DNA of 60,856 nucleotides, taken from Gemmatimonadota bacterium (GTDB taxonomy: Bacteria; Gemmatimonadota; Gemmatimonadetes; Gemmatimonadales; Gemmatimonadaceae). The stretch spans positions 1 through 60,856 of the forward strand of contig JACQBG010000029.1 of the NCBI GenBank assembly GCA_016194585.1, given 5' to 3'. The notes under the pieces were generated by a model, which saw only the letters and a program-made list of their open reading frames with translations, ran no database searches and was not told the origin of the DNA. Position numbers and translations under genes: made by a program. Below are positions 33,199 through 51,300 of this stretch, in pieces (position 1 is the first letter of the stretch; each line of letters starts with the position of its first letter).

Positions 33199-34782
33199 TC
33201 ATTTCCCGTCGATGCCGGCGCCCGCCAACGGTGGCGCGACGTCGGCACGCGCGGCGAGCATCGCCTCGCGCTGGGACGCGGCGAGGCGGAAGCGCTGCGA
33301 CCGCAGCGCGCTCCCCGTCGTCAGATGGAACGCGTGCGCGCCGATGCCGAGGCCGATCATCGACCAGATGAGCAACCCCGTCGGGCCGGTGAAGACGTCG
33401 CCCACGGGGAGGATCGAGACGAGCGCCACCGCCGTCGCGCGGATGGCGTTCGCGAAGCTGTCGTTGCGGGCCTCGAAGTACCGCGCCGACTGCAGGATGA
33501 GCCCCGAGATGCCGAGGAAGAAGAGCGTGCCGCCCGGCCACCCGAAGACGTAGAACACCTCGAGGAAACCGTTGTCGAGCGACCGCACGCCCTGGTTGCC
33601 GCGCAATTTGATCGCGCCACCCGTCGAGCCGAGCCCCGACCCCTCCGCGCTCTCCACGATGCTGCTCGCCGTCTCCTGCGAGAACTCGACGCGCTTCACG
33701 AAGCTGTTGTCCTGGCGCAGGTTCGTGAGCGTGTTCAAGCGAGGCAGGATCGTGTTCCGGAACTGCGGCGTCGCCGCGAGCGGCAGTGCCATCAGCGAGA
33801 CGGCGAGCAGCGTGATCGTGCGCTTCGGGATGCGTCCGAGCGGCTGCGAGAGCTGCGATACCACGACGCCGAGGATGAAGGCGATCCACGCCGACCGGGT
33901 GCGCGTCAGCAGCAGCGCGACGAGGGCGAGCGCGATGGCCGGGTAGCGCAGCCATCCCCGGTACGGGAGGATGAGGAGCGTGCCGGTGAGGAGCACGGCC
34001 GCGTACGGCCCGGGCGTGTTGAGCGTGCCGAAGACGCGCACCAGGAACGGCAGCGGTGAGCCGATGCTGCGCATGTCGGCGTTGCGCATCCACGTCGCGT
34101 CCCACACGGGGAGCCGCACGAACTGGTAGATGCCGTACGCCGCGAGGAGGGGCAACGCCACGTGGAACGTGCGCAGGATCGACGCGCGCAGTTCCGGATA
34201 GCGGCGCCACATCACGGCGAGCTGCAGGCCGAACAACGCGGGGGCCAGCCACGTCAGCAGTGCGTACGTCGCCGGGATGGCGCCCACTGTGACGAGCCCC
34301 ACCATGTAGCCGTACCCGAGCGCGGCCAGCACGAGCAGGTAGGGGGCGAACAGGATGCCGCGCAGTTCCTTCAGGTTGCGCGCCAGCGTGATCACCGCGA
34401 GCAGCGCGGCGACCTGGGGCGCGAGCAGCACCGGACTGGTGGCGTTCCACCCGTGGTGCCAGTCGAGCACGCGGCGCACGAACGGCGAGATGAACCAGAG
34501 CCAGAACGTGAAGTTCACGTACGACACGGGATCGGACTGGTGCAGTACGAGCGCCGCGAGCGCCGCGATGGCGGCGAAGGCGATGCTCGCCGGCCGCCCG
34601 CCGGCGCCGGCGAGCATCGCGAGCGTGGCCGCGCCGAAGAGGCCGACCACGATGACGGTCGTCGCCGGCACCCGGCGCCCCGAGGTGGGGAGCGCCGGGG
34701 CCGCGGCCGGCGCCTGCCGGGGCGGCCACGGCATCGCGGTCGGCGCGCCGAGCGGCACTGGAGGCGTATGCACCGCGCTCAC
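33199..34782 (-). CDS. O-antigen polymerase/ligase-like membrane protein (Wzy/WaaL-type)
   Basis: A 527-residue multi-pass protein with roughly ten to twelve hydrophobic helices. A long periplasmic loop around NTLTNLRQDNSFVKRVEF and a conserved-looking FGTLNTPGPYAAVLLTG segment place it with bacterial polymerase/ligase proteins that join undecaprenyl-linked glycans. Sequence within this family is poorly conserved, so polymerase versus ligase cannot be decided. It starts at GTG 34782 with GGAG six bases upstream. It follows the small membrane protein after a 15-bp gap, next to the chain-length regulator. Confidence 0.72.
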   Translation of the reverse strand: MSAVHTPPVPLGAPTAMPWPPRQAPAAAPALPTSGRRVPATTVIVVGLFGAATLAMLAGAGGRPASIAFAAIAALAALVLHQSDPVSYVNFTFWLWFISPFVRRVLDWHHGWNATSPVLLAPQVAALLAVITLARNLKELRGILFAPYLLVLAALGYGYMVGLVTVGAIPATYALLTWLAPALFGLQLAVMWRRYPELRASILRTFHVALPLLAAYGIYQFVRLPVWDATWMRNADMRSIGSPLPFLVRVFGTLNTPGPYAAVLLTGTLLILPYRGWLRYPAIALALVALLLTRTRSAWIAFILGVVVSQLSQPLGRIPKRTITLLAVSLMALPLAATPQFRNTILPRLNTLTNLRQDNSFVKRVEFSQETASSIVESAEGSGLGSTGGAIKLRGNQGVRSLDNGFLEVFYVFGWPGGTLFFLGISGLILQSARYFEARNDSFANAIRATAVALVSILPVGDVFTGPTGLLIWSMIGLGIGAHAFHLTTGSALRSQRFRLAASQREAMLAARADVAPPLAGAGIDGK

Positions 34783-34797: not shown

Positions 34798-35460
34798 CTA
34801 GGCGTCGCGATGACGACGCGAGCCGGACGAAGACGACGAACCGACCGACGCCTCCCGCAGCCGCCGGCGCAGCCGGCGGCGCCCCGACACGACCGCATAG
34901 GCGAGCAAGCTGATCGAGATCGTCGACGCCGTGCCGTGCGCGAACAGGCTGAACGGCGCCAGAGTCGACGGCGGCGGCGCGATCGGCGCCGTGCTCGCCC
35001 GGAAGCTCTTCATGCCGTTGAGCGCCGCCAGCATGCTGACGTCCAGCCCCAGCACCGCCGACGGCAGCGTCGTCGTGAACGACGACGAGAGGGTCGGGTC
35101 GCTCGCGCGGAAGACGAACATCACCGTGAGCCACATCCCGACGAGCAGGAGCGTGCTCAGGTAGAGCAAGCGCGACGTGATGCCGCGGCGCCGCGTGCGC
35201 TTGCGCCGCCCCGACCAGGGCTGGTCGAGCATCCACCAGAACAGCAGCGAGATGACGAGCGTGATCCCGAACACGGTCGGCGCGACGAGCAGCTCCAGCG
35301 CGAACAGCACGAGTCCGGCGATCGACGCGGCGCTGAACTGCCCCGACGACGGCAGCCGCTCCGTCCCCGTGTCGAACAGGTCGGGGACGAGCTCGCCCGT
35401 CTTGCGATCGGCGGGCGAGAGCGGCACGCGACCGCTCGTCCTCAGGGGATCAACGGGCAT
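34798..35460 (-). CDS. Small membrane protein of the exopolysaccharide operon, unknown function
   Basis: A 220-residue protein with about four hydrophobic segments (SIAGLVLFALELLVAPTVFG, ITLVISLLFWWML, LLYLSTLLLVGMWLTVMFVF and a later FSLFAHGTASTISISLLAYA), a Thr/Ser/Pro-rich external stretch and a basic, Ser-rich C-terminus (LREASVGSSSSSGSRRHRD). I recognise no family. It overlaps the BY-kinase gene end by 11 bp, hinting at coupled translation and perhaps a partner role in chain-length control or polymerase assembly. Confidence 0.65.
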   Translation of the reverse strand: MPVDPLRTSGRVPLSPADRKTGELVPDLFDTGTERLPSSGQFSAASIAGLVLFALELLVAPTVFGITLVISLLFWWMLDQPWSGRRKRTRRRGITSRLLYLSTLLLVGMWLTVMFVFRASDPTLSSSFTTTLPSAVLGLDVSMLAALNGMKSFRASTAPIAPPPSTLAPFSLFAHGTASTISISLLAYAVVSGRRRLRRRLREASVGSSSSSGSRRHRDA

Positions 35461-37810
35461 AGTCGTAGTAGTAGCCGTAGCCGAGCCGGTAGCGGGAACT
35501 GCGCCGGAACTCGACGTCGTTGAGGATCGTGCCGGCGAGCGTCACCTGCACGTTGCGCAGCTGCGCGACCGCGTACTTCAGCTCCTCGCGGTCGGTCTTG
35601 TCGGCGCGCGCCACGAGCAGCAGCGCGTCGGCGTGCGCGCCGATGAGCGCGCCGTCGGTGAAGAGGTTGAGCGGCGGCGTGTCGATGAGCACGTAGTCGT
35701 ACTGCCCGCGGAGCCGCTCGAACAGCGGCTGCAGCCGCCCCGCCACCAGCAGGTCGGCGGGGTTCACGCTCGGCGCGCTGCCGAGCGGGAGCACGTCGAT
35801 CGTGCCGCCCCCTTCCATCTGCACGCGACGGATGCACTCGCCCGGCGATGCCTGGCCGTACATGAGGTCGAAGAACCCGGGGGCCGGCGGGATGCCGAAC
35901 ACGTCGTGCACCGTGCCGCGCCGCGTCTCCGCGTCGATGAGGATCACGCGCTGCCCCTGGTGCGCCAGCGTCACGGCGAGGTTCACCACCGTCGTCGTCT
36001 TGCCGTCGCCCGGGAGGGCGCTCGTCACCACGATCACCCGCGGCGGACGCGGCGGCGTGAGGTAGTTCAGGTTCGTGCGCAACGTGCGGTACGCCTCGGC
36101 GGCCGGCGTCTGGTACTCCCGCCCCGCCGCCGGTCGCGACTCGTCGCCGTCCTTGGGAGTCGGCAATCGATACCCCACACTCCGCGCCTGCTGCTGCAGG
36201 TTCGGGATGATCCCCACCACGGCCACGCCGACGATGTTCGCGAGGTCGGCCTCGGTGCGGATCGTCGTGTCGAGCCAGTCGCGCAGGAAGGCCACCGCCA
36301 CGCCGACGAGCAGCCCCGAGAACACCGCCACCGCGAAGATCAGCGTCTCGCTGCTCCCCCCCTGCCGCGACGGGTTCACCGCCTCGTCGAGCACCGACGC
36401 CGTCGAGTCCTGCACCGCCTCCTGGATCTGCGCTTCCTTCAGCCGCCCCTGCACCAGCGTGATCATCTCCTCGACGATGTGCCGGTTGCGTTCGAGCTTG
36501 GAGTACTCGATCAGCTGCTCCGGCACCTTGTTGAGCTTCGCCTGCGTCGCCTGGATGCGCGGCCGCAGCGCGGCGAGCTGCTCGTCGAGGTTCACGAGGA
36601 ACGCCATCGTGCGCTTGCGGATGTTGTCCTGTGTCTCGCGGATCTGCTTGTCGAGGTTGCGGATGGTGCTGCCGTCGGGCGTGTAGCGGGTCAGCTCGGT
36701 CGACCGCTGCGCCAGCAGCGCGTCGTACCGGGCCACCTCGTTGTTCGCGATCCCCGACCGCTGGAAGTCGGGCGTCGCCATCAGCTTCTGGAGGAAGAGC
36801 GTGCGCGCGAGCACCGTGTCGGGGTTGCTCAACGGATCGAGCGCGCGGGTGATGTTCTCCTTCTGCTGTTCGAGCTCGCGCTGCTGCGAGACCAGGTTCA
36901 GCAGCTCCTGCGAGAGCATCGACTGCTCCGACTGCACGCCGCTGATCTGCTCGCGCTCGAGGTAGGCGCGCATCGCCGACTCGGCGTCCGTCACGTCCGC
37001 CTGCAGCTGCGCCATCTGCCGCTCGAGGTAGTCGACCTGCGTCTTCGCGCCGCTCCGGTCGAGCTCCATGCTCCGGTGCACGAACAGCCGCGCCATCACG
37101 TTCGGGATGTCGCGCGCCAGCGCCGAGTCCTTGCCCGTGTAGGAGATGGCCAGGACGTTCGCGTCCTTGTTCGTCGGCTGCACCGTGATCGACCCGCGCA
37201 GGTACTCCGCCACCTGCACGCGCGGCTCGACCGAGAGGTTGAAGTGCTCGAGCGCCCGCCCGTCGGCCGTGAGCGCCAGCTGGCCACCGATGATGTGCAA
37301 CGGCGCCGAATCCGGATACGTGCCGAGCAGCGAGTCGGGGGCGATCGTGTGCACCTCGCGCCCCGCCGGCGTGTTCAGCACCCGGTAGGCGAGCGACGGG
37401 GCATCCGACATCAGCTTCGCCCACGCGACGTAGCGGCTGCGCACCGGCGTCTGCGGCTGCGTCACGCTCAACCGCAGGCCGAGGGAGTCCACCGCCTCCG
37501 CCGCCAGCGTGCGGCTCGTGATGACCTCGCCGGCCATCGCCAGCAACCCCTGGTTGTCGACGCCGAAGCCGTACATCGCCGCGGCGCCCATCTGCGCCGA
37601 CTTCTTGTCGTCGATGCGCACCGTCGCCGAGGCCGTGTACGTCGGCTCCACCTGCCGCGCCGCGACGAGCGCCGCGACGACCGCGAGCCCCACGCACACG
37701 ACGATGATCCAAGCGCTCCGCGCGACCGTCTGCCACGCGCGGCGGAGGTCGATCTCCTGGTTCGGCTCGGCGAACGACGGCGGGAGGGCGGGAAGATTGT
37801 CCACGGACAA
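35450..37810 (-). CDS. Polysaccharide co-polymerase / BY-type tyrosine autokinase (Wzc-like)
   Basis: A 786-residue fused Wzz plus bacterial tyrosine kinase that sets glycan chain length and controls Wza-dependent export. An N-terminal membrane helix follows residue ~35 (SAWIIVVCVGLAVVAALVAA), then a long periplasmic coiled-coil region (residues ~170-430) and a second membrane helix near 470. The kinase has Walker A SALPGDGKTTTVVN near 594, Walker A' VILIDAETRRG near 617 and Walker B YVLIDTPPLN near 704. In Walker A' the second aspartate is glutamate. The tail YRLGYGYYYDY is the autophosphorylated Tyr cluster. The stop overlaps the next gene. Confidence 0.93.
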   Translation of the reverse strand: MSVDNLPALPPSFAEPNQEIDLRRAWQTVARSAWIIVVCVGLAVVAALVAARQVEPTYTASATVRIDDKKSAQMGAAAMYGFGVDNQGLLAMAGEVITSRTLAAEAVDSLGLRLSVTQPQTPVRSRYVAWAKLMSDAPSLAYRVLNTPAGREVHTIAPDSLLGTYPDSAPLHIIGGQLALTADGRALEHFNLSVEPRVQVAEYLRGSITVQPTNKDANVLAISYTGKDSALARDIPNVMARLFVHRSMELDRSGAKTQVDYLERQMAQLQADVTDAESAMRAYLEREQISGVQSEQSMLSQELLNLVSQQRELEQQKENITRALDPLSNPDTVLARTLFLQKLMATPDFQRSGIANNEVARYDALLAQRSTELTRYTPDGSTIRNLDKQIRETQDNIRKRTMAFLVNLDEQLAALRPRIQATQAKLNKVPEQLIEYSKLERNRHIVEEMITLVQGRLKEAQIQEAVQDSTASVLDEAVNPSRQGGSSETLIFAVAVFSGLLVGVAVAFLRDWLDTTIRTEADLANIVGVAVVGIIPNLQQQARSVGYRLPTPKDGDESRPAAGREYQTPAAEAYRTLRTNLNYLTPPRPPRVIVVTSALPGDGKTTTVVNLAVTLAHQGQRVILIDAETRRGTVHDVFGIPPAPGFFDLMYGQASPGECIRRVQMEGGGTIDVLPLGSAPSVNPADLLVAGRLQPLFERLRGQYDYVLIDTPPLNLFTDGALIGAHADALLLVARADKTDREELKYAVAQLRNVQVTLAGTILNDVEFRRSSRYRLGYGYYYDYAR

Positions 37811-37813
37811 CGG

Positions 37814-38476
37814 CTACCTCGTCAGCAGTGAGATCGCACCGAATATCATCGTGGCCACCTGGGCCACTTGGAACAGGCTGCCCATGATCCCCTGGTTCCG
37901 GATGAAGAAGTCCTCGTCCTGCACATAGATCGCGTCGCCCCGCGAGATGTCGACCGACGACAGCCGCGCCTCGCGCGGGAGCACGAAGTTGCGGCCGTCA
38001 CGCTTCACGAGGTAGATGAGCGGCTCGCGCCCGCTGCCCACCGACCCACCGCTCTTCGCGAGCACGCCCAGCACCGTCGTCGCCTGATCGACGACCACCG
38101 GCCCCGGGTTGCGCACCTGCCCGTACACCATCAACTCGCGGCTGAACTGGACGTCCACCGCCGGGTCGACGACGAGCTTCGCGTAGCGCGCCTGCACGTC
38201 GGCCTGCAGCGAATCGAGCGTGAGCCCGGAGACGTTCACCTTGCCGAGACCGGCGAAGAACGCCGACCCCGACTCCGTCACCTGCGCCTCGCCCGTCAGC
38301 TCCGGCTCACGGTACACGCGCGTCCGGATCACGTCGCCGATGTCGATCCGCCACACCGGACGCGCGCTCACCAGCGCGACCGGCTTCCGCAGGGCGGGCT
38401 GTCGCGTCGCGCATCCGGCCACCGCGATCACCGCGACGCACGTCAGGAACGGTCGGCACATCCGAGTCAGGCGCAT
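37814..38476 (-). CDS. Polysaccharide export lipoprotein (Wza-like, short form)
   Basis: A 220-residue outer-membrane lipoprotein. A lipobox VAGC (Cys22) ends the signal peptide, followed by the poly-export/SLBB pattern: IDIGDVIRTRVYREPELTGEAQVTESGS, LGKVNVSGLTLDSLQADV and a VYGQVRNPGPVVVDQATTVLGVL SLBB unit. It is shorter than E. coli Wza (about 380 residues) and seems to have one full SLBB unit. It forms the outer-membrane pore for the exopolysaccharide with the neighbouring kinase. The start ATG 38476 has only a weak ribosome binding site. Confidence 0.9.
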   Translation of the reverse strand: MRLTRMCRPFLTCVAVIAVAGCATRQPALRKPVALVSARPVWRIDIGDVIRTRVYREPELTGEAQVTESGSAFFAGLGKVNVSGLTLDSLQADVQARYAKLVVDPAVDVQFSRELMVYGQVRNPGPVVVDQATTVLGVLAKSGGSVGSGREPLIYLVKRDGRNFVLPREARLSSVDISRGDAIYVQDEDFFIRNQGIMGSLFQVAQVATMIFGAISLLTR

Positions 38477-38601: not shown

Positions 38602-40080
38602 TCAGAACGCCCCCTTCATGCTCAGCACTGCGGGGATCGTCCGCAACAGGATCAGGAAATCCCGCCATACCGTCCATCCCCGGATGTACGACGCCTCGAG
38701 CTGCACCACGTCCTCGAAGTTCCGGACGGCGTTGCGCCCGCTCACCTGCCACGGCCCCGTCATCCCGGGCAACACCTCGAACCGCACGAAGTGGTGCTGC
38801 CGGTAGCGCGCCACCTCCGTCGGCAGCGCCGGCCGCGGCCCCACCAGCGACATCTCGCCGCGCAGCACGTTCAGCAACTGCGGCAACTCGTCGAGCGACG
38901 ACTTGCGCAGGAACACCCCGATCGACGTCGTGCGCGGATCGCGCGCGAGCTTGAACAGCGGGTCCGTGGAGTAGACGTTCGCCCCCTCCAGCTCCCCCTG
39001 CTGCGCCTCCGCGCCGTGCACCATCGTGCGGAACTTCACCATCAGGAAGGGCTCGCCGCCGAGCCCGACCCGCATCTGCCGGAAGAGCACCGGCCCCCGC
39101 GACGTCAGCCGCACCGCGAGCGCCACCGCCGCGAACACCGGCGAGAGCACGACGATCCCGACCAGCGCGCCGACGAGGTCCACCGCGCGCTTGAGCACCA
39201 GCTGCGACCCGACCAGCGCCGGCCGCGAGAGGAGCGAGAGCGGCTGCGCGCGCCGCAGCACGAAGCTCGGCTCGTTCAGCTCCCGGAACGCCTCCCGCCG
39301 CGTGGCGTACACGCTCGCCCCGGCGCTCGACGAGGCGATCATCACCGCCTGGAGCGCCGCGTCGGAGAGCGAGCCGACCAGCACCACCGTGTCCGCCGCC
39401 GAGTCGGCCATCGCATCGTACAACTCGCGCATGCTCTCCTGCGTGCCCGCCGGCCACGTCTCCGACAACGGGAACACCGGCGCCTCCGCCCGCCCCCCCT
39501 CGCTGCGCGCGCGCGCCAGCCGCTTCACGTCGGCGGCGGGTCCCACGATCAGCGTCCGCGCCGGATCGATGCGACGCGGATCGATCGGCTTCAGCGCCTG
39601 CGTGAGCACCCGGCGCTGCAGCGTGATCGCCAACCACACCGCCGCGAGCACCACGCCGATCAGCAGCCAGCGCCAATGCGCCTCCGCCGACCACACTTCC
39701 ACCCAGCGCGGCAACACGAGCCCGAGCAAGACCGCCGCCGCGATGCGCGTCGGCAATTGCTCGCGCTGCGTGTGGTCGTACGACCGCGTCACGATCAGGC
39801 AGAACAGCAACGACGTCACGCGACGAAGGAGCGCCACCGGCGTCTGCGGCAGGAGGCCGTTGACGAAGGACGTCCCGCCTTCCCCCTGGCCGAATCCCGG
39901 CAGCAGGGCGTTCAACGGCAGCATCCCGAGCAGCGCGAAGATCGCGGAGATGGTGAGGATGTCGGCCGCCACCATCACGCCGCCGTAACTCACCTCGCGC
40001 CAGAAACGGCGGCGCTGCAGTACCAGCGCGCGGTACCGAAGTTCCAGCCTGGCAAGGTGGACGGGCGTGGCCAAAGTCAC
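38602..40080 (-). CDS. Exopolysaccharide priming polyprenyl-phosphate sugar phosphotransferase (WbaP/WcaJ-like)
   Basis: A 492-residue enzyme that starts glycan synthesis by moving a sugar-1-phosphate onto undecaprenyl phosphate. The N-terminal part has four to five hydrophobic segments and a nucleotide-binding-like middle (ARTLIVGPAADVKRLARA). The catalytic C-terminal domain shows KRAVDLVGALVGIVVLSPVF, the RKSSLDELPQLLNVLRGEM stretch with SLVGPRPALPTEV, and PGMTGPWQVSGRN. GTG 40080 is the start. As first gene of the long minus-strand operon it probably sets the rate of polymer production. Confidence 0.92.
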   Translation of the reverse strand: MTLATPVHLARLELRYRALVLQRRRFWREVSYGGVMVAADILTISAIFALLGMLPLNALLPGFGQGEGGTSFVNGLLPQTPVALLRRVTSLLFCLIVTRSYDHTQREQLPTRIAAAVLLGLVLPRWVEVWSAEAHWRWLLIGVVLAAVWLAITLQRRVLTQALKPIDPRRIDPARTLIVGPAADVKRLARARSEGGRAEAPVFPLSETWPAGTQESMRELYDAMADSAADTVVLVGSLSDAALQAVMIASSSAGASVYATRREAFRELNEPSFVLRRAQPLSLLSRPALVGSQLVLKRAVDLVGALVGIVVLSPVFAAVALAVRLTSRGPVLFRQMRVGLGGEPFLMVKFRTMVHGAEAQQGELEGANVYSTDPLFKLARDPRTTSIGVFLRKSSLDELPQLLNVLRGEMSLVGPRPALPTEVARYRQHHFVRFEVLPGMTGPWQVSGRNAVRNFEDVVQLEASYIRGWTVWRDFLILLRTIPAVLSMKGAF

Positions 40081-40145
40081 TATCGGGTCAGATGTTCGTC
40101 TAGTAGGGAAGACGGCCTAATCTAGGCAGCGACGTGGTTTCCCGT

Positions 40146-40173
40146 TTGCCCGGGCAGGAGCTATCAATATAGT
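40146..40173 (+). promoter_or_regulatory. Candidate sigma-70-type promoter upstream of the PilT-like gene (distal)
   Basis: TTGCCC (40146-40151) and TATAGT (40168-40173) are separated by 16 bp in the AT-rich divergent gap. It faces the PilT-like gene. A second, better candidate lies just downstream, so this one may be accessory. Confidence 0.35.
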
Positions 40174-40187
40174 ATGAACACTAATGG

Positions 40188-40217
40188 ACTGGACAGTTTT
40201 GTTCCAGTGTTTATATT
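40188..40217 (+). promoter_or_regulatory. Candidate promoter overlapped by an inverted repeat (operator-like)
   Basis: TGGACA (40190-40195) and TATATT (40212-40217) are 16 bp apart, each one mismatch from consensus. ACTGGA (40188-40193) and TCCAGT (40203-40208) form an exact inverted repeat that covers the -35 and the spacer. A start site near 40224 would leave a leader of about 127 nt before the PilT-like ATG. A repressor acting on the divergent exopolysaccharide region would fit. Confidence 0.45.
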
Positions 40218-40350
40218 CTAATCGTGTCCCCCGGCCCAAACGAGCCGCGCGCTTCTTCTCGCGCGTCCTCCACCTTCGCCGCCGCTCATCTACGCCGCAG
40301 ATTCCTTGCACCACGCGCTGAAGTCCTCGTCTCCAACCTTCCCGGCTGAC

Positions 40351-41493
40351 ATGTCGACCGGCCCCGCGCCAGAGGATCGCCGCTTCCGCCCGTCGGCGTC
40401 CGTCGCCGAGGTGGAGAAGCTGCGGAAATTCCTCGCCGAGGCGATCGAACGCGGCGCGTCGGACATCCACATCCGCGCTGGGGACGTGGTCTACGCGCGC
40501 ATCGGCGGTCAGCTCACCCCGCTCGACACGCCGACCCTCACGGCCGTCAGCACGTACGAGATGGTCACGCACATCCTCGGCACGTCGTCCAACGCGCCAT
40601 CGATCGAGGACGTCCGCGACTACTCCGGCCCGTGGAGCGCGCCGGGCATCGCCCGCTTCCGCGTCAGCATCCTCAAGCAACGGTCGAGCTTCGCCATCGT
40701 CATGCGCGTCATCCCCGACGTGCTGCCGACGCTCGAAGGACTGGGCCTCCCGGCCGTCATCGGCCAGGCCGTCCTCGCCGACTTCGGCCTCTTCTTCGTG
40801 TCCGGCGTGCCGGGCTCGGGACGCGCGAGCACCATCGCCGCGCTCATCCACCACCTCAACACGCACTCGCCCCGCCGCCGCCACATCGTCGCCATCGAGA
40901 CGGCGATCGAGTTCCTGCACCGCAACAACAAGTGCGCGATCACGCAGCGTGAGGTGGGCGTCGACACCGACAGCTTCGCCGACGGCATGCGTGCCGCCCT
41001 CGACCAGGACGCCGACATCATCGTCGTCGGCGAGATGAACGACCCGGAGATCATCGAGCTCGCCGTCCGCGCCGCCGAGGCGGGACGCCTCGTCATCGGC
41101 AAGATGAGCGCCCCCGACGCGACCGGAGCGCTCCGCCAGTTCCTCGCCGGCCTCCCGAGCGAACAGCAGGACACGGCGCGCCTGCACGTCACCGAGATGC
41201 TGCGCGCCGTCGTCGCGCAGCGGCTCCTGCCGCGCTCCGACGGCCAGGGGCGCGTGCTCGCCTGTGAGATCCTCCTCATGACGCCGCTCGTGCGCGACGT
41301 GCTGGGCGATCCGGGGCGCCTCGCCGAGATCCGGCAGACGCTCGCCGACGGCCGCGCGGAGTTCGGCACGCAGACCTTCGACCAGCAACTGGCCGATCTC
41401 GTCATCAGCGGGCAGGTGTCGTTCGAGGTCGCGCTCACGCTCGCCACCAACTCGCTCGACTTCGAGCTGCAACTGCGCGGATTGCGCCGCTAG
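40351..41493 (+). CDS. PilT-like protein with degenerate ATPase motifs
   Basis: A 380-residue homologue of the type IV pilus retraction ATPase PilT: SDIHIRAGDVVYARIGGQL, the CAITQREVG motif and DIIVVGEMNDPEI place it firmly. The catalytic parts have changed. Walker A reads GVPGSGRAST (the invariant Lys is Arg, near residue 152), the Asp box IEDPIEF is IETAIEF, and the His box TLHT is KMSA near residue 250. Nucleotide hydrolysis is therefore doubtful, and a regulatory pseudo-ATPase is likely. It stands alone, without other pilus genes, divergent from the exopolysaccharide operon. The ribosome binding site is weak; a TTG at 40306 is a less likely start. Confidence 0.85.
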   Translation: MSTGPAPEDRRFRPSASVAEVEKLRKFLAEAIERGASDIHIRAGDVVYARIGGQLTPLDTPTLTAVSTYEMVTHILGTSSNAPSIEDVRDYSGPWSAPGIARFRVSILKQRSSFAIVMRVIPDVLPTLEGLGLPAVIGQAVLADFGLFFVSGVPGSGRASTIAALIHHLNTHSPRRRHIVAIETAIEFLHRNNKCAITQREVGVDTDSFADGMRAALDQDADIIVVGEMNDPEIIELAVRAAEAGRLVIGKMSAPDATGALRQFLAGLPSEQQDTARLHVTEMLRAVVAQRLLPRSDGQGRVLACEILLMTPLVRDVLGDPGRLAEIRQTLADGRAEFGTQTFDQQLADLVISGQVSFEVALTLATNSLDFELQLRGLRR

Positions 41494-41509: not shown

Positions 41510-42343
41510 TCACGTCCGTCCGAACAGGCGCGCCCAGAACGGGCGCGCCTGTCCCGCATCCGGCCTCGTGAAGCTCACCGGCGGCACCGGCAGCGGCTCC
41601 TCGCCCGCGCACAGCCGGCCGGGGTTCACCACCGTGAGCAACTCGGCCTGCTCCGACGCGCCGATCGACTCGAGCAGCGAGACGAACGACGCGACGCCGG
41701 GCTCGCCGCGCGCGTGGTAATCGCTCGAGACGTAATCCACCCACCCGCTCGCCAGCAATCGCTGTGCGACCGCCGCGGCGCGCGCGCCGTAGCCGCCCGA
41801 GAGCGAGGCGGCGTTCAGCTGCATCCGTCCGCCCGCGGCGCGGAACCGCGCGAACGTCACCAGTTCCTCGTCGACGTTGCGATAGCGCTCGGGGTGCGCG
41901 ATCACCGGGCGCCATCCTTTCTGCCGCAGCGCGACGACCGCGTACTCGGCGTTGAGCGGCGGCAACTGCAGCCCGGGGAACTCGACGAGCACGAACGGCC
42001 CCCCCGCCAGGCGCAGCCGCTCGTCCGACAGGTCGGGATCGGGGATGTCGAGCATCACTTCGGCGCCACGCGCGACGGTGAGCGCACCTCCGTGCGCGGC
42101 TCCCTCACCGGCCGCCACGCGTTGCAGCGACGCCCATCCCGCGTCGAGCTCGGCGAGCCGCGTGGCGAGCGCCTCGGCGACGAGCGTGAGCGACCCCATG
42201 AAATGTGGCGTGGTGACGACGCGTCCCACCCCTTCGCCGCGGAACCGCTCGAGCGCGGCGGCGCTGAAGGACTCGTCACGCGCGCCGTCGTCCACGCCGG
42301 GCATGAGGTGGCTGTGGAAGTCGGTGCGGCGCAACGCGGTCAT
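41510..42343 (-). CDS. CpsB/CapC-type tyrosine-protein phosphatase (PHP domain)
   Basis: A 277-residue metal-dependent PHP phosphatase. Metal-binding motifs are in order: TDFHSHLMPGVDDGA (HxH at residues 10 and 12), TTPHFMG, IAHPERYR and SSDYHARG. In capsule systems this enzyme dephosphorylates the C-terminal tyrosines of the BY-kinase, so it is the natural partner of the Wzc-like protein encoded about 5 kb away in the divergent operon. It has an ATGA overlap with the epimerase gene upstream and shares a terminator-like palindrome at its 3' end. Confidence 0.88.
   Translation of the reverse strand: MTALRRTDFHSHLMPGVDDGARDESFSAAALERFRGEGVGRVVTTPHFMGSLTLVAEALATRLAELDAGWASLQRVAAGEGAAHGGALTVARGAEVMLDIPDPDLSDERLRLAGGPFVLVEFPGLQLPPLNAEYAVVALRQKGWRPVIAHPERYRNVDEELVTFARFRAAGGRMQLNAASLSGGYGARAAAVAQRLLASGWVDYVSSDYHARGEPGVASFVSLLESIGASEQAELLTVVNPGRLCAGEEPLPVPPVSFTRPDAGQARPFWARLFGRT
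41524..41552. terminator. 12-bp stem palindrome ending the convergent pilT-like and cpsB-type genes
   Basis: ACAGGCGCGCCC (41524-41535) pairs exactly with GGGCGCGCCTGT (41541-41552) around a 5-base loop. It lies inside the last codons of the minus-strand phosphatase gene and 30 bp past the stop of the PilT-like gene. No T tract follows, but the stem is very stable and probably ends transcription from both sides. Confidence 0.6.
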
Positions 42344-43867: not shown

Positions 43868-44590
43868 CTAGAGCGCCGGCCACGCTCCCGACAGGCGCGC
43901 CGCCTTCGGCTCGCTGATCTCCATGGTGCCGTCGAAGGCGCTGATCTCGACCTTCACCGCCTCGCGCAGGAGTTGTGCGTCGAACGGCGGCCGGCCGGGG
44001 CCGAGTTCCTCGAGGATGGCCGCGGTGCGGAGCGCGTCGAAGGCGACGCTCGCCCCCGCCGCGGCCGCGACGAGCGCCGTCAGCTGGCCGTGGTCGACGG
44101 GGAGCACCGCGTCGAGCGCGTCGGCGAGGGCGCCGAGCGCCTGCCGCGCGTCGTCGCGCAGTTGCACGTAGCGCCGCGAGTCGACGCGGTGCTTGACGAG
44201 CAGGTCGCGTGGCGACGGGATGCGCCGGGGCCGGCGTTCCATGACGCGGTCGAGCCGCATCGCCATCTTGTCGACGGGGATCGGCTTGCGGATGAAGTCG
44301 GTGACGCCGAGCCGCAGCACGCGCTCGATGATGTCGGCGCTCGAGTCGCCGGCGCAGAAGACCACGGGCACGTCACGCAGCCACGGCAGTGGCCGGAGAT
44401 CCTCGACGAGCGCGATGCCGTTCCCGTCGGGGAGTTCGACATCGAGCACGATGAGGTCGACGGCGACGCCGCGCAGCAGCGCGGTCGCCTCGGCCAGCGT
44501 GCCGACGCGACGCGCCGGATATCGCAGCCGCCGGAAGAGCTGCGACAGCATCTCCGCCGTGACCGGATCGTCTTCGACCAACAGGATCAT
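43868..44590 (-). CDS. Response regulator, receiver domain plus unknown helical output
   Basis: A 240-residue protein. The receiver domain (residues 1-~118) has the acidic pair E6/D7-D8, phospho-acceptor D50 in LIVLDVELPDG, and the conserved lysine in FIRKPIP. At the end of the fourth strand the usual Thr/Ser is replaced (VVFCAGD), which may alter activation. The C-terminal ~115 residues are alpha-helical (RRYVQLRDDARQALGALADAL, LTALVAAAAGASVAFDALRTA) with no DNA-binding or enzymatic signature. It follows cheZ in the chemotaxis operon and could be an adaptation or flagellar regulator. Confidence 0.7.
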   Translation of the reverse strand: MILLVEDDPVTAEMLSQLFRRLRYPARRVGTLAEATALLRGVAVDLIVLDVELPDGNGIALVEDLRPLPWLRDVPVVFCAGDSSADIIERVLRLGVTDFIRKPIPVDKMAMRLDRVMERRPRRIPSPRDLLVKHRVDSRRYVQLRDDARQALGALADALDAVLPVDHGQLTALVAAAAGASVAFDALRTAAILEELGPGRPPFDAQLLREAVKVEISAFDGTMEISEPKAARLSGAWPAL

Positions 44591-44656
44591 GACCTGCTCC
44601 GAACTGCCGCGCCGCGTGCGGTCGCACCAGAGTGGAGCGCGCCGCCGTGTCGCGAG

Positions 44657-45334
44657 TTACGCCTTGGGCGTCGAGGAAAAGACCTCGTCCGCGACCGACT
44701 GGCGTTTTTCCTGGTCCTGCACCGTCGCGTGCATGTCGAACGTCGGGGCCGCGTCGTTCAGCGGCGGCAACTGGGGGAGCGCGTCGGACTTCCCGGCGCC
44801 CGGATCGAGGATCTGCATCAGCCGCAGCAGCTTCGCTTCCATGTCGAGCAGCACGTTCGACGCGTAGTTGATCTGCTGGGTGGTGATGTCCTGGAACTGC
44901 AGCGCCCCGATGATCCCGAAGATCTCGTCGCGGAGGCTGTTGCGGACGTCCTTCGACCGGCCACCGTCGCCGGTGTCGGCGTCGAGCTCGTCGATGAGCC
45001 CCTGCGCGCGGTCGAGCGCGTCGAGGATGCCGTTCGTCGCCGTCTCGGTGGCCGACGTCACTTCCTGCAGCTTCGAGTGCGTGTGCTGGATACGCTCGAC
45101 GGTGCTGTGCTCGAGCGCGCTGCGGCTCTCGCGGAGGCTCGTGATCACCTGCACGATCTCGGCGTTCGCGAGCTGCAGGATGTACGGCAACGAGGCGAGG
45201 ATGGTGCGCCCGTCGGCCGCGCCGTCGTTCGCCGCGGCGGGCTCGCCCGCCTTCAACTCGCCGAGTTCGCGGTCGACGAGGCGTAGCGTTGCCTCGCTCT
45301 CGTACAGCACCTCGGCGGCACGATTGGGTGTCAT
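44657..45334 (-). CDS. cheZ: CheZ-family chemotaxis phosphatase
   Basis: A 225-residue protein. The long helices (residues ~10-120) form the CheZ coiled-coil hairpin. The catalytic motif ALQFQDITTQQ holds D149 and Q153, which line up with D143 and Q147 of the E. coli enzyme that dephosphorylates CheY-P. After a Pro-rich linker, the C-terminal SVADEVFSS looks like the CheY-binding peptide. It is adjacent to cheY (4-bp gap), consistent with partner function. CheZ is best known from Proteobacteria, so its presence here helps define the chemotaxis type. Confidence 0.85.
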   Translation of the reverse strand: MTPNRAAEVLYESEATLRLVDRELGELKAGEPAAANDGAADGRTILASLPYILQLANAEIVQVITSLRESRSALEHSTVERIQHTHSKLQEVTSATETATNGILDALDRAQGLIDELDADTGDGGRSKDVRNSLRDEIFGIIGALQFQDITTQQINYASNVLLDMEAKLLRLMQILDPGAGKSDALPQLPPLNDAAPTFDMHATVQDQEKRQSVADEVFSSTPKA

Positions 45335-45338
45335 GGCA

Positions 45339-45713
45339 TCACCCGGCCACGTTGGCCGCGGTGAGCGCGTCGATCTTGTCCTTGAGCACCTGCGGCGTGA
45401 ACGGCTTCACGATGTAGTTGTTCACGCCCGATTCCAGCGCCGTGATGATGTCTTCCTTCAGCGAACGCGTCGTCATCATGAGGATCGGCACGGTCTTGCC
45501 GTCGTCGCGCGCCCGGATGGCGCGCGCGAAGTCCACCCCGCCGAGGTTCGGCATGTTCCAGTCGGTGATGATGAAACCGACGGAGGCGTCGAACTTCTGG
45601 AGCGCTTCCTTGCCGTCGCCGGCTTCGACGATGTCGGTGACACCGATCCGCTGCAGCGAGTTCACGACGATGCGTCGCATCGTCGCCGAGTCATCGATCA
45701 CGAGGAACTTCAT
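45339..45713 (-). CDS. cheY: CheY chemotaxis response regulator
   Basis: A 124-residue single-domain receiver. Acidic pocket D7/D8, phosphorylation site D51 in IITDWNMPNLGG, the switch Thr in MMTTRS and the lysine in VKPFTP are all present, as is the tyrosine (NNYIVKP) of the CheY output face. It carries chemoreceptor signals to the flagellar motor. It is encoded between flgM and cheZ and is presumably co-expressed from the flgM promoter. Length and motifs are canonical. Confidence 0.93.
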   Translation of the reverse strand: MKFLVIDDSATMRRIVVNSLQRIGVTDIVEAGDGKEALQKFDASVGFIITDWNMPNLGGVDFARAIRARDDGKTVPILMMTTRSLKEDIITALESGVNNYIVKPFTPQVLKDKIDALTAANVAG

Positions 45714-45744
45714 GGGCGCGTCCGGAAGGCAGAAGGTGGAAAGG

Positions 45745-46035
45745 TCAGAGGTCGCCGCTCTTCAGGATGTTCTGCGCGACCCGGTCGACGACGGCCGAGG
45801 AGTCGTACGCGCCCTGGAGGATGCGTTGACGGATGAGCGTGGTGCGTTCAGGCGTGAGCGCGCCGCCCTTCGACAGCGCGCGCCCTTCGGCCGACAGCTC
45901 GACGCTGTCCCGCCGTGGCGCGCGTGGCTGGGCCGGCGCCGCGGGAACCTGAGTACCCTGCACCGGCGCACCCGCCTCGGGGCGGACGTGGGAAACCTTC
46001 GAGGCACCGTCGAACGGCGTGGGGTTGATCTTCAT
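45745..46035 (-). CDS. flgM: Anti-sigma-28 factor FlgM
   Basis: A 96-residue protein that holds the flagellar sigma factor FliA inactive until the hook is complete. The N-terminus is short, charged and disordered with a typical MKINPTPFDG; the C-terminal part RDSVELSAEGRALSK and RTTLIRQRILQGAYDSSAV is the conserved sigma-binding region. ATG 46035 has a strong AGGAGGA five bases upstream, and a sigma-28 promoter precedes it, giving the usual feedback loop. It heads the flgM-cheY-cheZ-response-regulator operon. Confidence 0.93.
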   Translation of the reverse strand: MKINPTPFDGASKVSHVRPEAGAPVQGTQVPAAPAQPRAPRRDSVELSAEGRALSKGGALTPERTTLIRQRILQGAYDSSAVVDRVAQNILKSGDL

Positions 46036-46056
46036 CGTGTTCCTCCTGGGAGGTCA

Positions 46057-46083
46057 GTATCGGCGCGCGCCGGATGAACTTGA
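46057..46083 (-). promoter_or_regulatory. Sigma-28 (FliA) promoter of flgM
   Basis: On the minus strand TCAAGTTC-N11-GCCGATAC matches the flagellar sigma-28 consensus TAAAGTTT-N11-GCCGATAA at 6/8 and 7/8 positions with exact spacing. A start near 46050 leaves just the AGGAGGA ribosome site before the flgM ATG. The same CCGATAC core appears before fliC and fliS. Confidence 0.78.
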
Positions 46084-46090
46084 ACCGGCG

Positions 46091-46387
46091 TCAGCGGACG
46101 ATGTCGAGATGATGGGGTGTGATGGACGCGATGCGCGCGTCCGGCGCGGCGTCGAGCACGGGACGCGCCGGCGTCAGCGCCGACACGGCCTCGGCGTGCA
46201 ACCGGCCCAGCTGCTCGCGCGTCGACCGCGCGGCATGGCGCACCCGATCGACGTCCATCGCCGCCTTCGCGATGAAATCGTCGATGCGGCGCGGTTCGCT
46301 CGGCTCCTCGTCCGCCGCCATCTCCAGCGTCGAACGGACGAGACCGGGCCACCGCGCCGACGGCGCGCCCTGCCGTACGGAAGCCAT
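46091..46387 (-). CDS. Unknown small protein in the flgM operon
   Basis: A 98-residue protein with a mostly helical, charged composition (RIDDFIAKAAMDVDRVRHAAR, REQLGRLHAEAVSALTP) and a C-terminal DARIASITPHHLDIVR. No known family was recognised. Its position between flgM and flgL is where many genomes carry flgN or flgK, so a hook-filament junction chaperone is possible, but the sequence does not show FlgN motifs. ATG 46387 shares a base with the upstream stop (TGATG). Confidence 0.55.
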   Translation of the reverse strand: MASVRQGAPSARWPGLVRSTLEMAADEEPSEPRRIDDFIAKAAMDVDRVRHAARSTREQLGRLHAEAVSALTPARPVLDAAPDARIASITPHHLDIVR

Positions 46388-46605
46388 CAGTCACACACCC
46401 TCGGCGGCCTCGCCGCCATCAAGTACTCCGACGCCACCGCCTCGACATGGTCGAGGTGCGAGCACTCCTGACGCACGCGCGCGCCCGCCGTGTCGAGCCG
46501 CGCGTGCAAGGCGTCGGCGAACACGGGGCGGGACTTCGCGGTGCTCGAGCCGGACCCCCCGGCGGACGCCGGGTCGCCCGGCACGTGCTGCTCACGCCGG
46601 TTCAT
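46387..46605 (-). CDS. Unknown small protein, first gene upstream of flgM
   Basis: A 72-residue protein, hydrophilic, with a Ser/Gly-rich N-terminus and a helix around VFADALHARLDTAGARVRQE that includes a cysteine and two histidines (CSHLDHVEAV). No domain recognised. ATG 46605 is supported by AGGAA five bases upstream; an in-frame GTG at 46608 is the alternative. It precedes the 98-residue gene with a TGATG overlap, so both are probably co-expressed, and it diverges from flgL. It could be a small flagellar regulator or chaperone. Confidence 0.45.
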   Translation of the reverse strand: MNRREQHVPGDPASAGGSGSSTAKSRPVFADALHARLDTAGARVRQECSHLDHVEAVASEYLMAARPPRVCD

Positions 46606-46705
46606 CACATTCCTATCATCGGCACCCTCCCCCGATTTCTTGAGCCCGGACCCGGGGGTCCTCTAATAGGAAGGGGCAGGCGCCCGGCATGGCCCCGCCC
46701 CCGGA

Positions 46706-46721
46706 TGGCACGCTTTCTGCG
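46706..46721 (+). promoter_or_regulatory. Sigma-54 (RpoN) promoter of flgL-fliW
   Basis: TGGCACGCTTTCTGCG has the invariant GG and GC spaced by 10 bases as in -24/-12 promoters. A start near 46732 leaves a leader of 34 bases before the flgL ATG. An inverted repeat GGACCC-N2-GGGTCC lies at 46648-46661 (about -84 to -71) and could be an activator site. Confidence 0.75.
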
Positions 46722-46765
46722 ACACCTCTCCGCGAACGCCACCGCCGCCCACGGAGAGGTACGGA

Positions 46766-47668
46766 ATGCGCATCACCAACAACCTGGCCACCCAGCTCGC
46801 GATCACGAACTTCTCGACCGTCCGCGAGCAGCTCGACGCGGCCCAGACGCAGGTCACCACGGGGCACAAGTTCGAGCAGGCGTCGCAGGACCCCACCGCC
46901 GCTGTGGGCGTCATGCAGGACGAGAGCCAGCTCTCCGCCCTCGGCCAGTACCAGCGCAACGTCGGCACGGCGAGCGCCCGCGTGAACCTCGAATCGGGCG
47001 TGCTGAACCAGATCAACGACCTGCTCACCCGCGCCAAGGAGCTGGCGATCGCCCAGGCCACCGGCACGGCGACGGCGGCCACGCGGCAATCGACCCTCCC
47101 CGAGGTCAACCAGCTCCTCGCGCAGGCCGTGCAGCTCTCGAACACCAAGGACGGCAGCGAGTACCTGTTCGGCGGCACCAACTCGACCAACGTCCCCTAC
47201 ACGGTGCAGACGACGGGCCAGAGTTACACCTTCTCGGTCGCGACGCCACCGCCCAGCGGACCGCGGCAGCTCGAGATCTCGGCCGGACAGCGCATCGTGG
47301 CCGGGCACGACGGCACGCAGGTGTTCGGCGACGCCACGTCGGGCACCCTCAAGACGCTGCAGGACCTCGCCGGCGCGCTCCAGTCGGGCGACCAGACGCA
47401 GGTCACCAACACGCTCTCGTCGATCGACACCGCCATCCAGAACACCCAGTCGCTCATCGGCGACGCCGGGGCGCGCGCCAACACGCTCGACATCACCAAG
47501 GCGAACATCACGGCGCTCAACAACCAGGTGACGCAATTCAAGTCCGACCTGCAAGACGTCGATGTTGAGACGGCGATGACCAACCTCGTCAGCAGGCAGA
47601 CCGCCTATCAGGCGGCGATGGCAGCGACCTCGCGCGTGCTCAGTCTCTCCCTCACGAGCTACCTGTGA
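46766..47668 (+). CDS. flgL: Flagellar hook-associated protein FlgL (HAP3)
   Basis: A 300-residue junction protein between hook and filament. The flagellin-type N-terminus MRITNNLATQLAITNFSTVR and QVTTGHKFEQASQDPTAAVGV, and the C-terminus QDVDVETAMTNLVSRQTAYQ, are the conserved coiled-coil ends needed for export and assembly; the middle (GGTNSTNVPYTVQTTG) is variable. It has a good GGAGAGG ribosome site. Its stop and the fliW start overlap (TGATG). flgK, its usual partner, is not in this window. Confidence 0.92.
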   Translation: MRITNNLATQLAITNFSTVREQLDAAQTQVTTGHKFEQASQDPTAAVGVMQDESQLSALGQYQRNVGTASARVNLESGVLNQINDLLTRAKELAIAQATGTATAATRQSTLPEVNQLLAQAVQLSNTKDGSEYLFGGTNSTNVPYTVQTTGQSYTFSVATPPPSGPRQLEISAGQRIVAGHDGTQVFGDATSGTLKTLQDLAGALQSGDQTQVTNTLSSIDTAIQNTQSLIGDAGARANTLDITKANITALNNQVTQFKSDLQDVDVETAMTNLVSRQTAYQAAMAATSRVLSLSLTSYL

Positions 47669-48135
47669 TGACCGCCCCCCTGCTCGCGGTTCCCGTCGCC
47701 GGCGCACGCCGCACCATCCCCACCGAACTCTTCGGCCCGCTCGACATCGCCGAGGAGCACATCATCGAATTCAGCGAGGGGATCCTCGGATTCCCGGCGT
47801 GCCACGGCTGGGTGCTCATCGACGGGGCGAAGCCGGGCACGGCGTGGCTCCAATCGGTGGAGTACTCGGCGCTCGTCTTCCTGCTCGCCGATCCGTTCGT
47901 GTTCTTCGAGGGCTTCACTGCCGAACTCTCGCCGACGGAGTTGCGCCGCCTCGATGCGCGCGAGCCGGGGCAGCTCGCCGTCTTCGCCATCGTGACGCTG
48001 CCGGAGAGGCGGAGCGGCGATGCGACGGCGAACCTCCAGGGGCCGATCATCATCAACGTGCACTCGCGCCGCGGTGCCCAAGTCGTGCTCGGCGAGTCGT
48101 CGTGGAGCGTGCGGCAGCCGATCTCCTTCGGCTGA
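47668..48135 (+). CDS. fliW: Flagellar assembly factor FliW
   Basis: A 155-residue beta-rich protein that binds flagellin and, in many bacteria, CsrA, so linking filament assembly to flagellin translation. Typical segments are GPLDIAEEHIIEFSEGILGFP, SVEYSALVFLLADPFVFF and RSGDATANLQGPIIINVHSRRG, ending with ESSWSVRQPIS. ATG 47668 overlaps the flgL stop. Unlike many FliW loci there is no csrA gene directly downstream. A hairpin at 48143 probably ends this transcript. Confidence 0.92.
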   Translation: MTAPLLAVPVAGARRTIPTELFGPLDIAEEHIIEFSEGILGFPACHGWVLIDGAKPGTAWLQSVEYSALVFLLADPFVFFEGFTAELSPTELRRLDAREPGQLAVFAIVTLPERRSGDATANLQGPIIINVHSRRGAQVVLGESSWSVRQPISFG

Positions 48136-48339: not shown

Positions 48340-51300
48340 ATGACGTCACCCTCCCAGAACGGCCAGCTCCTCAGCCAGGCGAAGGAGCGGTTCGACGCCG
48401 CGGTCCGCCTGCACCTGCAGGGCGACATCGCGGGCGCGCGTCGCGCGTACGAGACCGTCGTCGATGCGCTGCCGTCGTTCGCCGAGGCGCGCAACAACCT
48501 GGCGGCGCTCCTCGCGCAGTCGAGGGAGTTCGACGCCGCCATCGCGCATCTGCGCGAAGCGACGCGAGCGCAGCCGGCGTATGCCGACGCGTGGCACAAC
48601 CTGGGGTTGGCGCTCGCGCAGCGCGGCCGCCCGGCGGATGCGGTCGCGCCGCTGCGCACGGCCGTGGAGCTGCAGCCCGATCGCGCCGCGTGGTGGGGTG
48701 ACCTCGGCAATGCGCTCGTCGAAGACCTGCGTCACGAGGAGGCGCTCGACGCGTACACGCGCGCCGAAGGATTGGCGCCGGGCGACGTGATGGCGGTGTC
48801 GAATCGCGCGATCGCGCTGCGCGGCCTGCGCCGGCTGCCGGAGGCCGGCGAGGCGTGCCGGCGCGCGCTCGCCATCGATCCCGGCCATCTCGAGACCCTG
48901 AACAACTTCGGCGTCATCCTCAAGGAGATGCGCGCCTTCGACGACGCGGAACGCCTGTATGGAGCGGCGCTCGCGCGGCACCCGCACGCGATGACGCTGC
49001 AGGTGAACCAGGCGGTGCTCCTCATGGAGATGGGGCGGCACGACGAGGCCGAGTCGATCGCGCGCCTCCTCACGGAACGGCATCCCGAGGCGGTGGAGCC
49101 GTGGAACGTGCTCGGCCACTGCGCGCACGAGCGCGGCGATTGGGCGACGGCCGAGCGCTGCGAGCGGCGCGCGCTCGCGCTCGACCCCGACGACCGCAAC
49201 GCCAATTGGAACCGGGCGATCCACACGTTGCTGCGGGGCGACCTCGCCGACGGGTTCCGCCTGTTCGAGTGTCGCAAGCGGCTCCTCTCCGTCGTCTTCA
49301 CGCGCCGGCAGTTCGCGGCGCCCGAGTGGGACGGCTCGCCGCTCGCCGGGCGAACGATCTTCGTGCACGCCGAGCAGGGGCTGGGCGACGGTTTCCAGTT
49401 CGTCCGTTACGCCGCGACGTTGAAGGCGCGCGGCGCGGCGCGGGTGATGGTGGAAGCGTCGCCGTCGGCGGAAGAGGTGATGCGCACCGCTCCCGGCGTC
49501 GACGACGTGGTGCTGCCGGGCAATCCGCTTCCCGCGTTCGACGTGCACGCGTCGCTGATGAGCCTTCCGTACCTGTGCGGCACGGCGGTGGTGGACGACA
49601 TCCCGAACGCGGTCCCCTACCTTCGGGCGCCGGCGCGTGCGATCGCGCGGACGATCGCGGATCGGGGCGAGGGGCTCCGCGTCGGCATCGTGTGGGCCGG
49701 GAATCCGATGCACCAGCGCGACCGCGTGCGGTCGATGGCGCTGTCGCAGCTCGAACCGCTGCTGGCGGCCCGCGGCGTGACGTTCTTCTCGTTGCAGAAG
49801 GGGGACGCCGCGACGCAGCTCGCCGATCCACGCTTCGCGCACGTGGTGGACCTGGCCCCGGCACTCACCGACCTCGGCGATGCGGCGGCGGCGATCGCGG
49901 CGCTCGATCTCGTGATCACGGTCGACACCGCGATCGCGCACCTCGCCGGTGCGCTCGGGAAGCCCGTGTGGACGTTGCTGCCGCTCGTCCCCGACTGGCG
50001 TTGGATGCGCGACGGGGAGACGTCGCCCTGGTATCCCTCGATGCGACTGTTCCGTCAGCGTGAGCGGAACGCGTGGGGGCCGGTCGTCGGCGAGGTGATC
50101 CAGTCGCTCGCTTCGTTCCGCGCCGAGGCGGCGCCGCAGCCGGCGAGCGCGCACGCGGTGCCATCACCGGCGCCCGGCGCGAACGCGGCGGAGCAGACCG
50201 GCGACCGGCGCCGGATCGTGGAGATCGAATGGCAGGCCGGGCTGACGTCGGGGTGGGGCACGTACGGGCTGCACCTGGCGCTCGCGCTGCACCGCTCCGA
50301 TCGCGCCGAGCCGGTGTTGCTCGAGGCGCCGGTGCTCGCCGGGCTCAACCCGCTCGTCGAGCGCCGCCTGCGCAAGACGCTGCGACTCACGCCGGCGGCG
50401 CGCGTCCCGTCGGCGATCAGGCTCACGGGGATGGGCAACTACCTCGAGCGCCGCTCGTCGGCGGAGCTCCCGCGCGACCGGCGCAACGTGGGCGTGATCT
50501 TCTTCGAGGACGCGCTCCTCGACGCGACGGCCGTGCTGCGCGCCCGCGAGTACGAGCTCATCGTCGCCGGTTGCACGTGGGGCGCCGAGATGCTCAAGGC
50601 CTATTCCATCGAGAACGTCGCGATGGTGCTGCAGGGCGTCGATCCCTCGCTCTTCCATCCCGCGCCGCGCAGCGGCGCGTTCGGCGACCGCTTCCACGTG
50701 TTCTCGGGGGGGAAGCTCGAGTTCCGGAAGGGGCAGGACATCGTGGTGGAGGCATTCAAGCGGTTCCACGCGACGCACCCCGACGCGGTGCTCGTCACGG
50801 CGTGGCACAACCACTGGCCGGCGACGATGAAGGGCATCGACGCCGCGGGCTGGGTGCACGGCGTGCCCGAAGTGAACGGCCGGCAGTGCGCGGTCGCGCC
50901 ATGGCTCGTCGCCAACGGCGTGGCCGCCGACGCGGTGATCGACCTGGGCGTGCTGCCGCAGCCGCAGATGGCGCAGGTGCTGCGCGAGATGGACGTCGCG
51001 GTGTTCACGAACCGGTGCGAGGGAGGCACCAACCTCGTGGCCATGGAGGCGATGGCGTGCGCGATCCCGACGATCGTGTCGGCGAACACGGGACACCTGA
51101 ATCTCATCGGCGCCGACACCTGCTTCCCGCTCGAGCGACAGCCGTCGGTGACCGCGACGAGCGGACAATATCGGAGCACGTACTGCTGGGGGGAGAGCGA
51201 TCCCGACGAGGTCGTGGCGCACCTCGAGCGCGTGTATGACGACCGTGCCGAGGCGCGGCGTCGTGGCGAGCAGGGTGCACGGCTGATGGCGCAACTGCCG

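Follow-up and report, generated by a model that had tools for sequence, protein, structure and literature searches.

A PilT-family pseudo-ATPase associated with an exopolysaccharide locus in Gemmatimonadaceae

The exopolysaccharide locus

We analysed a window of 60,856 nucleotides, that is, the whole stretch of DNA considered here, from a Gemmatimonadota bacterium (Gemmatimonadaceae; assembly GCA_016194585.1, contig JACQBG010000029.1). It contains the gene of a PilT-family protein with altered catalytic motifs, referred to below as pseudo-PilT, which is flanked by genes for exopolysaccharide (EPS) synthesis. The locus comprises the following features:

33199-34758, minus strand: Wzy/O-antigen-ligase-type polymerase (Wzy_C, 6.5e-11)
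34798-35427, minus strand: 209-aa protein without Pfam or NCBIfam match, part of the conserved EPS block
35450-37810, minus strand: Wzc-type chain-length protein/tyrosine autokinase
37814-38431, minus strand: Wza-type polysaccharide export protein (Poly_export, 2e-15)
38602-40080, minus strand: priming glycosylphosphotransferase (EPS_sugtrans, Bac_transf)
40188-40217, no strand assigned: dyad ACTGG-N11-CCAGT with a sigma70-like TGGACA-16-TATATT overlapping it, between the two divergent genes
40351-41493, plus strand: PilT-family pseudo-ATPase, 380 aa, translated without internal stop
41449-41490, plus strand: codons of the C-terminal tail, NSLDFELQLRGLRR, residues 367-380, the best-conserved stretch in the pseudo-PilT clade
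41510-42343, minus strand: CpsB/CapC-type phosphatase, convergent neighbour (CpsB_CapC, 1e-30)

The first-pass annotation of this DNA had placed the gene opposite the priming transferase, next to a CpsB-type phosphatase and away from pilus genes, and all three points were confirmed. The transferase gene starts at 40080 on the minus strand, 270 bp from pseudo-PilT, the convergent phosphatase gene ends 16 bp downstream of it, and the scan of window genes revealed no pilus gene. In five genera, every locus that retains this flank has pseudo-PilT and the priming transferase diverging, and the order beyond the divergent promoter region is priming transferase, Wza, Wzc, 209-aa protein and Wzy. Pseudo-PilT is convergent with CpsB in nearly all loci, and the more distant genes vary. 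It is thus not encoded with pilus genes, and EPS genes adjoin it in all loci with intact flanks; a pilus neighbourhood is not a strict mark of PilT, because orphan PilTs exist. In the loci checked, the 209-aa protein lies between Wzc and Wzy in several genera, with 33-58% identity.

The EPS pathway parts found are thus the priming transferase, Wzy, Wzc and Wza, and no Wzx flippase turned up in the scan of window genes. The cluster that holds the Wzy-type genes also encodes, at 22172-23392 (plus strand), an ABC ATPase of the Wzt type with a sugar-binding Wzt_C domain, and therefore two export routes may coexist. At 13170-16238 (minus strand) lies the gene of a 1022-aa protein in which an asparagine-synthase/XrtA-type amidotransferase (residues 1-615) is joined to a GT4 glycosyltransferase (residues about 780-1020). 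On the other side, beside the EPS locus, flagellar and chemotaxis genes occupy 43868-48135 and 53520-56294 (CheY-like, CheZ-like with 5.8e-8, FlgL, FliD); outside Proteobacteria, CheZ is unusual. The gene at 48340-51345 (plus strand), just downstream of that for FlgL, encodes a 1001-aa protein that combines TPR repeats with a GT9-like stretch and a GT4-type domain, and that possibly participates in flagellin glycosylation.

Assignment to the PilT family

Pseudo-PilT matched Pfam T2SSE (3.6e-26) and passed the NCBIfam PilT/PilU model TIGR01420 marginally, with 319.5 bits for a cut-off of 319.1, compared with 481 for the true PilT and 437 for an intact orphan paralogue of the same genome. The closest solved structure by sequence was Thermus thermophilus PilT2 (5fl3, E 6.4e-81), which was also the top fold match (TM 0.85) of the AF2 model of pseudo-PilT (mean pLDDT 85.6). 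The full-length PilT/PilU model, albeit marginally, and the fold thus both place it in this family.

The source genome is 98% complete. A search for pil genes elsewhere in the genome, as the first-pass annotation had proposed, located a PilB-PilT-PilC cluster on another contig (C7); a PilT-like protein is encoded on C18 and the intact orphan PilT on C10 (G000:C10:41891-42955, L067:8856-9956). The latter protein is present in most sampled genomes of the order (loci L067, L022-L036, L070, L071, L075 and L076) and has no pilus neighbours where these are annotated. Its Asp box reads LENPIEF, with Asn, rarely His or Glu, in place of the usual Asp.

Orthologues and phylogeny

Twenty-eight orthologous copies of pseudo-PilT were found in four genera of the family (64-94% identity), and two distant copies, with 51-53% identity, in a fifth genus. 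All 30 form a single clade (support 100/100) on a long branch (1.32), which arises from among the intact orphan PilTs; long-branch attraction was flagged for the two distant members, whose exact position in the tree is less sure. Among 395 genomes drawn from the whole phylum, no clade member was found outside the family. Relatives in other collections were from Gemmatimonadota and, according to their record titles, several came from lake metagenomes. Our literature searches for a pseudo-ATPase PilT, and for PilT in Gemmatimonadetes together with exopolysaccharide, returned no description of either.

Catalytic motifs lost and kept

Aligned to the intact orphan paralogue, pseudo-PilT reads GVPGSGRAST, IETAIEFLH, GEMND and GRLVIGKMSA, versus GVTGSGKSST, LENPIEFLH, GEMRD and GHLLISTLHT. 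The strings quoted beforehand for the four motifs (GVPGSGRAST, IETAIEFLH, VGEMND and GRLVIGKMSAPDA) were borne out, and the non-catalytic SDIHIRAGD and TQREVG are kept, as had been claimed.

The Walker A Lys is replaced by Arg (K158R) in 30/30 members of the clade, while it is Lys in all 24 comparison sequences, and pseudo-PilT therefore does not conform to the GxxxxGK[ST] pattern of PilT and PilU. It also departs from their His box, since the first histidine is changed to Arg (H246R) and the second, H253, is lost in every clade member (H253S in the window copy). The Arg that follows the catalytic Glu next to Walker B, R230, is likewise gone in 30/30. The Asp-box Glu, E183, is kept in 29/30 (27/28 without the two distant members) and the arginine fingers R104 and R119 in all 30, as in PilT and PilU. 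E228, the catalytic Glu that follows Walker B, is present in the window copy and in 22/28 orthologues, and is gone in the other six and in both members of genus g14.

The initial description of three ruined motifs was therefore slightly overstated. It holds for Walker A and for the His box, where both histidines have gone and not just that of TLHT. The Walker B motif has lost its adjacent Arg but kept the catalytic Glu, and the Asp box has kept its Glu, the adjoining Asp being already Asn, His or Glu in the intact sister paralogue. The alignment of homologues from related genomes indicated that these substitutions are conserved, and the situation that was to argue against a pseudo-ATPase, namely intact boxes in close orthologues with the window copy as a singleton, was not encountered.

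In PilB structures a His-box His contacts the gamma-phosphate, and the Asp-box Glu coordinates Mg2+ and touches the Arg finger of the adjacent subunit (PMC5424180). According to these roles, the residues lost belong mainly to phosphate binding and sensing, and those kept include residues that join subunits. The motifs strongly suggest that pseudo-PilT has lost ATP hydrolysis, although nucleotide could still be bound by its Walker A Arg, given that the Asp-box Glu, the catalytic Glu and the Arg fingers have been retained.

Pseudo-PilT could instead still hydrolyse ATP, perhaps slowly, in a pocket reworked around Arg in place of Lys, and drive the EPS export machine as its motor. This could also explain the retention of the catalytic Glu in 22/28, of the Asp-box Glu in 27/28 and of all Arg fingers, and the Arg residues at 158 and 246 are fixed rather than random. 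We consider it improbable, since no clade member has the Walker A Lys, either histidine of the His box or the Arg beside Walker B, the catalytic Glu is itself dispensed with in six orthologues and both g14 members, and the intact paralogue evolves more slowly in the Walker B and His-box segments.

Selection and shifted constraint

Pairwise dN/dS for 13 close pairs of pseudo-PilT was between 0.017 and 0.222, similar to intact PilTs; the intact-paralogue pairs L071/L076 and L033/L034 were excluded because of alignment artefacts (in-frame stops upstream of the gene), which also make the synonymous-variation figures of the intact paralogue unusable. Residues 223-256, which span Walker B to the His box, are relaxed, with a mean entropy of 0.96 versus 0.26 in the intact paralogue. 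Conversely, the last 14 residues have a mean entropy of 0.02 bit in the clade, versus 0.85-0.92 in the intact paralogue, and this tail (367-380) ranks first of 344 windows for conservation. None of 20000 random site sets matched the relaxation of 223-256, and none of 20000 the constraint on 367-380. Synonymous variation is about as frequent in the tail as in the rest of the gene, so the constraint acts on the protein, and a DNA-level element was rejected as the cause of the conservation.

Among seven proteins of the locus, pseudo-PilT evolves most slowly (mean distance 0.30-0.32), followed by the priming transferase (0.36), Wzc (0.41), CpsB (0.42), the product of gene 38 (0.43), Wzy (0.51) and Wza (0.58). 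Its distances track those of the priming transferase best (r 0.95).

Some drift at catalytic positions and a truncated remnant in one genome (G005, see below) might suggest a functionless gene that decays while being carried along by its neighbours. This is scarcely credible, as it is already contradicted by the dN/dS values of 0.02-0.22, the open reading frame in 30/30 and the slow evolution of a protein whose C-terminus is nearly invariant. A singleton or decaying copy was also rejected on account of the 28 orthologous copies. The pattern of constraint looks like a change of job and not like decay. Together with the purifying selection, the 30/30 Lys-to-Arg change in Walker A and the loss of both histidines and of the Walker-B-adjacent Arg lend strong support to the pseudo-ATPase reading proposed at the outset.

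Co-occurrence and natural deletions

An orthologue of the priming transferase was present in 30 of 179 genomes of the family, 29 of which also carried full-length pseudo-PilT; one had the transferase alone, and full-length pseudo-PilT was never found without it. The association (Fisher 1e-32 over the 179 genomes) is not corrected for kinship, and both linkage and kinship inflate the figure. The presence of pseudo-PilT varies inside four genera (g1, g13, g14 and g47). Pseudo-PilT is thus linked to, and co-occurs with, the Wza/Wzc/Wzy EPS genes.

In G005 a natural deletion has removed the EPS genes of the compared block, leaving CpsB intact. It ends within pseudo-PilT (L066:6359-7030), which is cut to residues ~158-380 with its 5' half gone, the block between gene 4 and pseudo-PilT being absent. 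In G064 the EPS block is present, but no pseudo-PilT lies within 5 kb upstream of its transferase; pseudo-PilT is therefore not strictly required.

A dead subunit might alternatively modulate pilus retraction, by entering or stacking on rings of PilT or of the orphan PilT and slowing retraction when the EPS locus is expressed. The inter-subunit residues (R104/R119 and the Asp-box Glu) are kept in 29-30/30, potential partners are encoded on C7 (PilB-PilT-PilC) and C10 (intact orphan PilT), and Vibrio cholerae PilU works through PilT (PMC6762196). The same study argues against mixed PilT/PilU hexamers, and the true PilT is just 37% identical to pseudo-PilT. Two genomes, G014 and G016 (96 and 100% complete), have pseudo-PilT without an intact orphan PilT, so that partner is not needed, and an obligate partnership was rejected as a general rule. 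Since pseudo-PilT is tied to the EPS locus and its annotated neighbours are not pilus genes, a brake on retraction is weakened further, and we regard it as unlikely.

The shared intergenic element

The 30-bp dyad/promoter element lies inside the intergenic region shared by pseudo-PilT and the priming transferase (40081-40350), and its sigma70-like -35/-10 match is on the plus strand, reading toward pseudo-PilT. It has been conserved in g44, in most members of genus g1 and in some of g47; it is weak in g13, where only the right half was found, poor in locus L063 and absent from the g14 locus examined. Exact matches to the searched dyad pattern occur in the genome at this locus only. A genome-wide regulon marked by the dyad was rejected, given the single exact match and a two-mismatch count not above control.

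The first-pass annotation had suggested that the protein may connect surface sensing with polysaccharide synthesis. The polysaccharide half of this suggestion is thus supported by synteny, by co-occurrence and by a conserved shared intergenic element. This comparative evidence shows a tie between pseudo-PilT and EPS at the level of genomes; its weak point is that tight linkage alone yields co-occurrence, and that the genomes are related.

Proposed role of pseudo-PilT

The comparison of genomes indicates that pseudo-PilT is dedicated to one EPS locus and conserved across a group of Gemmatimonadota within one family. Our preferred interpretation, to which we assign a probability of roughly 0.6, is that a hydrolysis-dead PilT paralogue was recruited to regulate or scaffold one Wza/Wzc/Wzy EPS pathway, as a dedicated protein without motor function. 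An orphan PilT-type ATPase would have been duplicated and would then have lost hydrolysis. The protein is presumably still folded, and probably still forms rings, because the Arg fingers and the Asp-box Glu are kept. We infer that it would be held in one nucleotide-independent conformation, in which its C-terminal face may bind a component of the EPS machine. As a guess, this partner would most likely be the priming transferase, at initiation, or Wzc, and binding could switch on or localise EPS synthesis.

Comparison with known systems

Pseudo-PilT shares with PilT/PilU (TIGR01420; PilT2 5fl3 and Geobacter metallireducens PilT4) the fold, the Arg fingers of the N2D, the Asp-box Glu, the QREVG region and the C-terminal domain. 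It differs from them in having neither the Walker A Lys, nor the two histidines of the His box, nor the Arg beside Walker B, and by the absence of pilus neighbours, the linkage to EPS genes and a fixed C-terminal ELQLRGLRR tail. Its closest relative, with 49% identity, is the intact orphan PilT of the same order, which unlike pseudo-PilT has a canonical Walker A Lys, His box and catalytic Glu and adjoins MgtC, tRNA synthetase 1b and purA genes instead of EPS genes.

In Myxococcus xanthus, PilB regulates EPS. Its Walker A mutant K327A brings EPS back in the absence of pili, which a Walker B mutant does not do, and the PilB mutants suggest that the nucleotide-free form is the EPS-signalling form (PMC5544727). 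The pilus ATPase superfamily can therefore do such a job, and M. xanthus PilB offers a parallel to pseudo-PilT, as it is related to the pilus ATPases and its Walker A form without hydrolysis signals for EPS (PMC5544727). PilB differs in that it is a functional motor for extension, carries c-di-GMP motifs and acts upstream of Dif, whereas the loss in pseudo-PilT, a PilT paralogue encoded beside an EPS operon, occurred naturally and has become fixed.

How pilus machines and polysaccharide synthesis communicate is an open question in the field. More tentatively, and with the odds rather against it, pseudo-PilT might be a ring in a constitutive signalling state that activates or positions the priming transferase via its invariant tail, a pilus motor having become a polysaccharide switch. 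If this is true, evolution reached the switch through a Walker A change of the kind seen in the EPS-signalling PilB mutant. That PilB form was made in the laboratory; here such a form appears to be naturally fixed, as a separate, motor-free protein beside EPS genes, and signalling could therefore be studied apart from pilus movement.

A second precedent comes from the same organism, in which EPS is controlled by EpsW directly contacting the priming transferase EpsZ (PMC12802240). The two precedents together favour a hydrolysis-dead ring or scaffold acting on EPS initiation or on Wzc. The likeness of EpsW-EpsZ to the role proposed for pseudo-PilT lies in the post-translational control of EPS by a non-enzymatic partner at the priming transferase (PMC12802240), with the difference that EpsW is a response regulator of unrelated fold.
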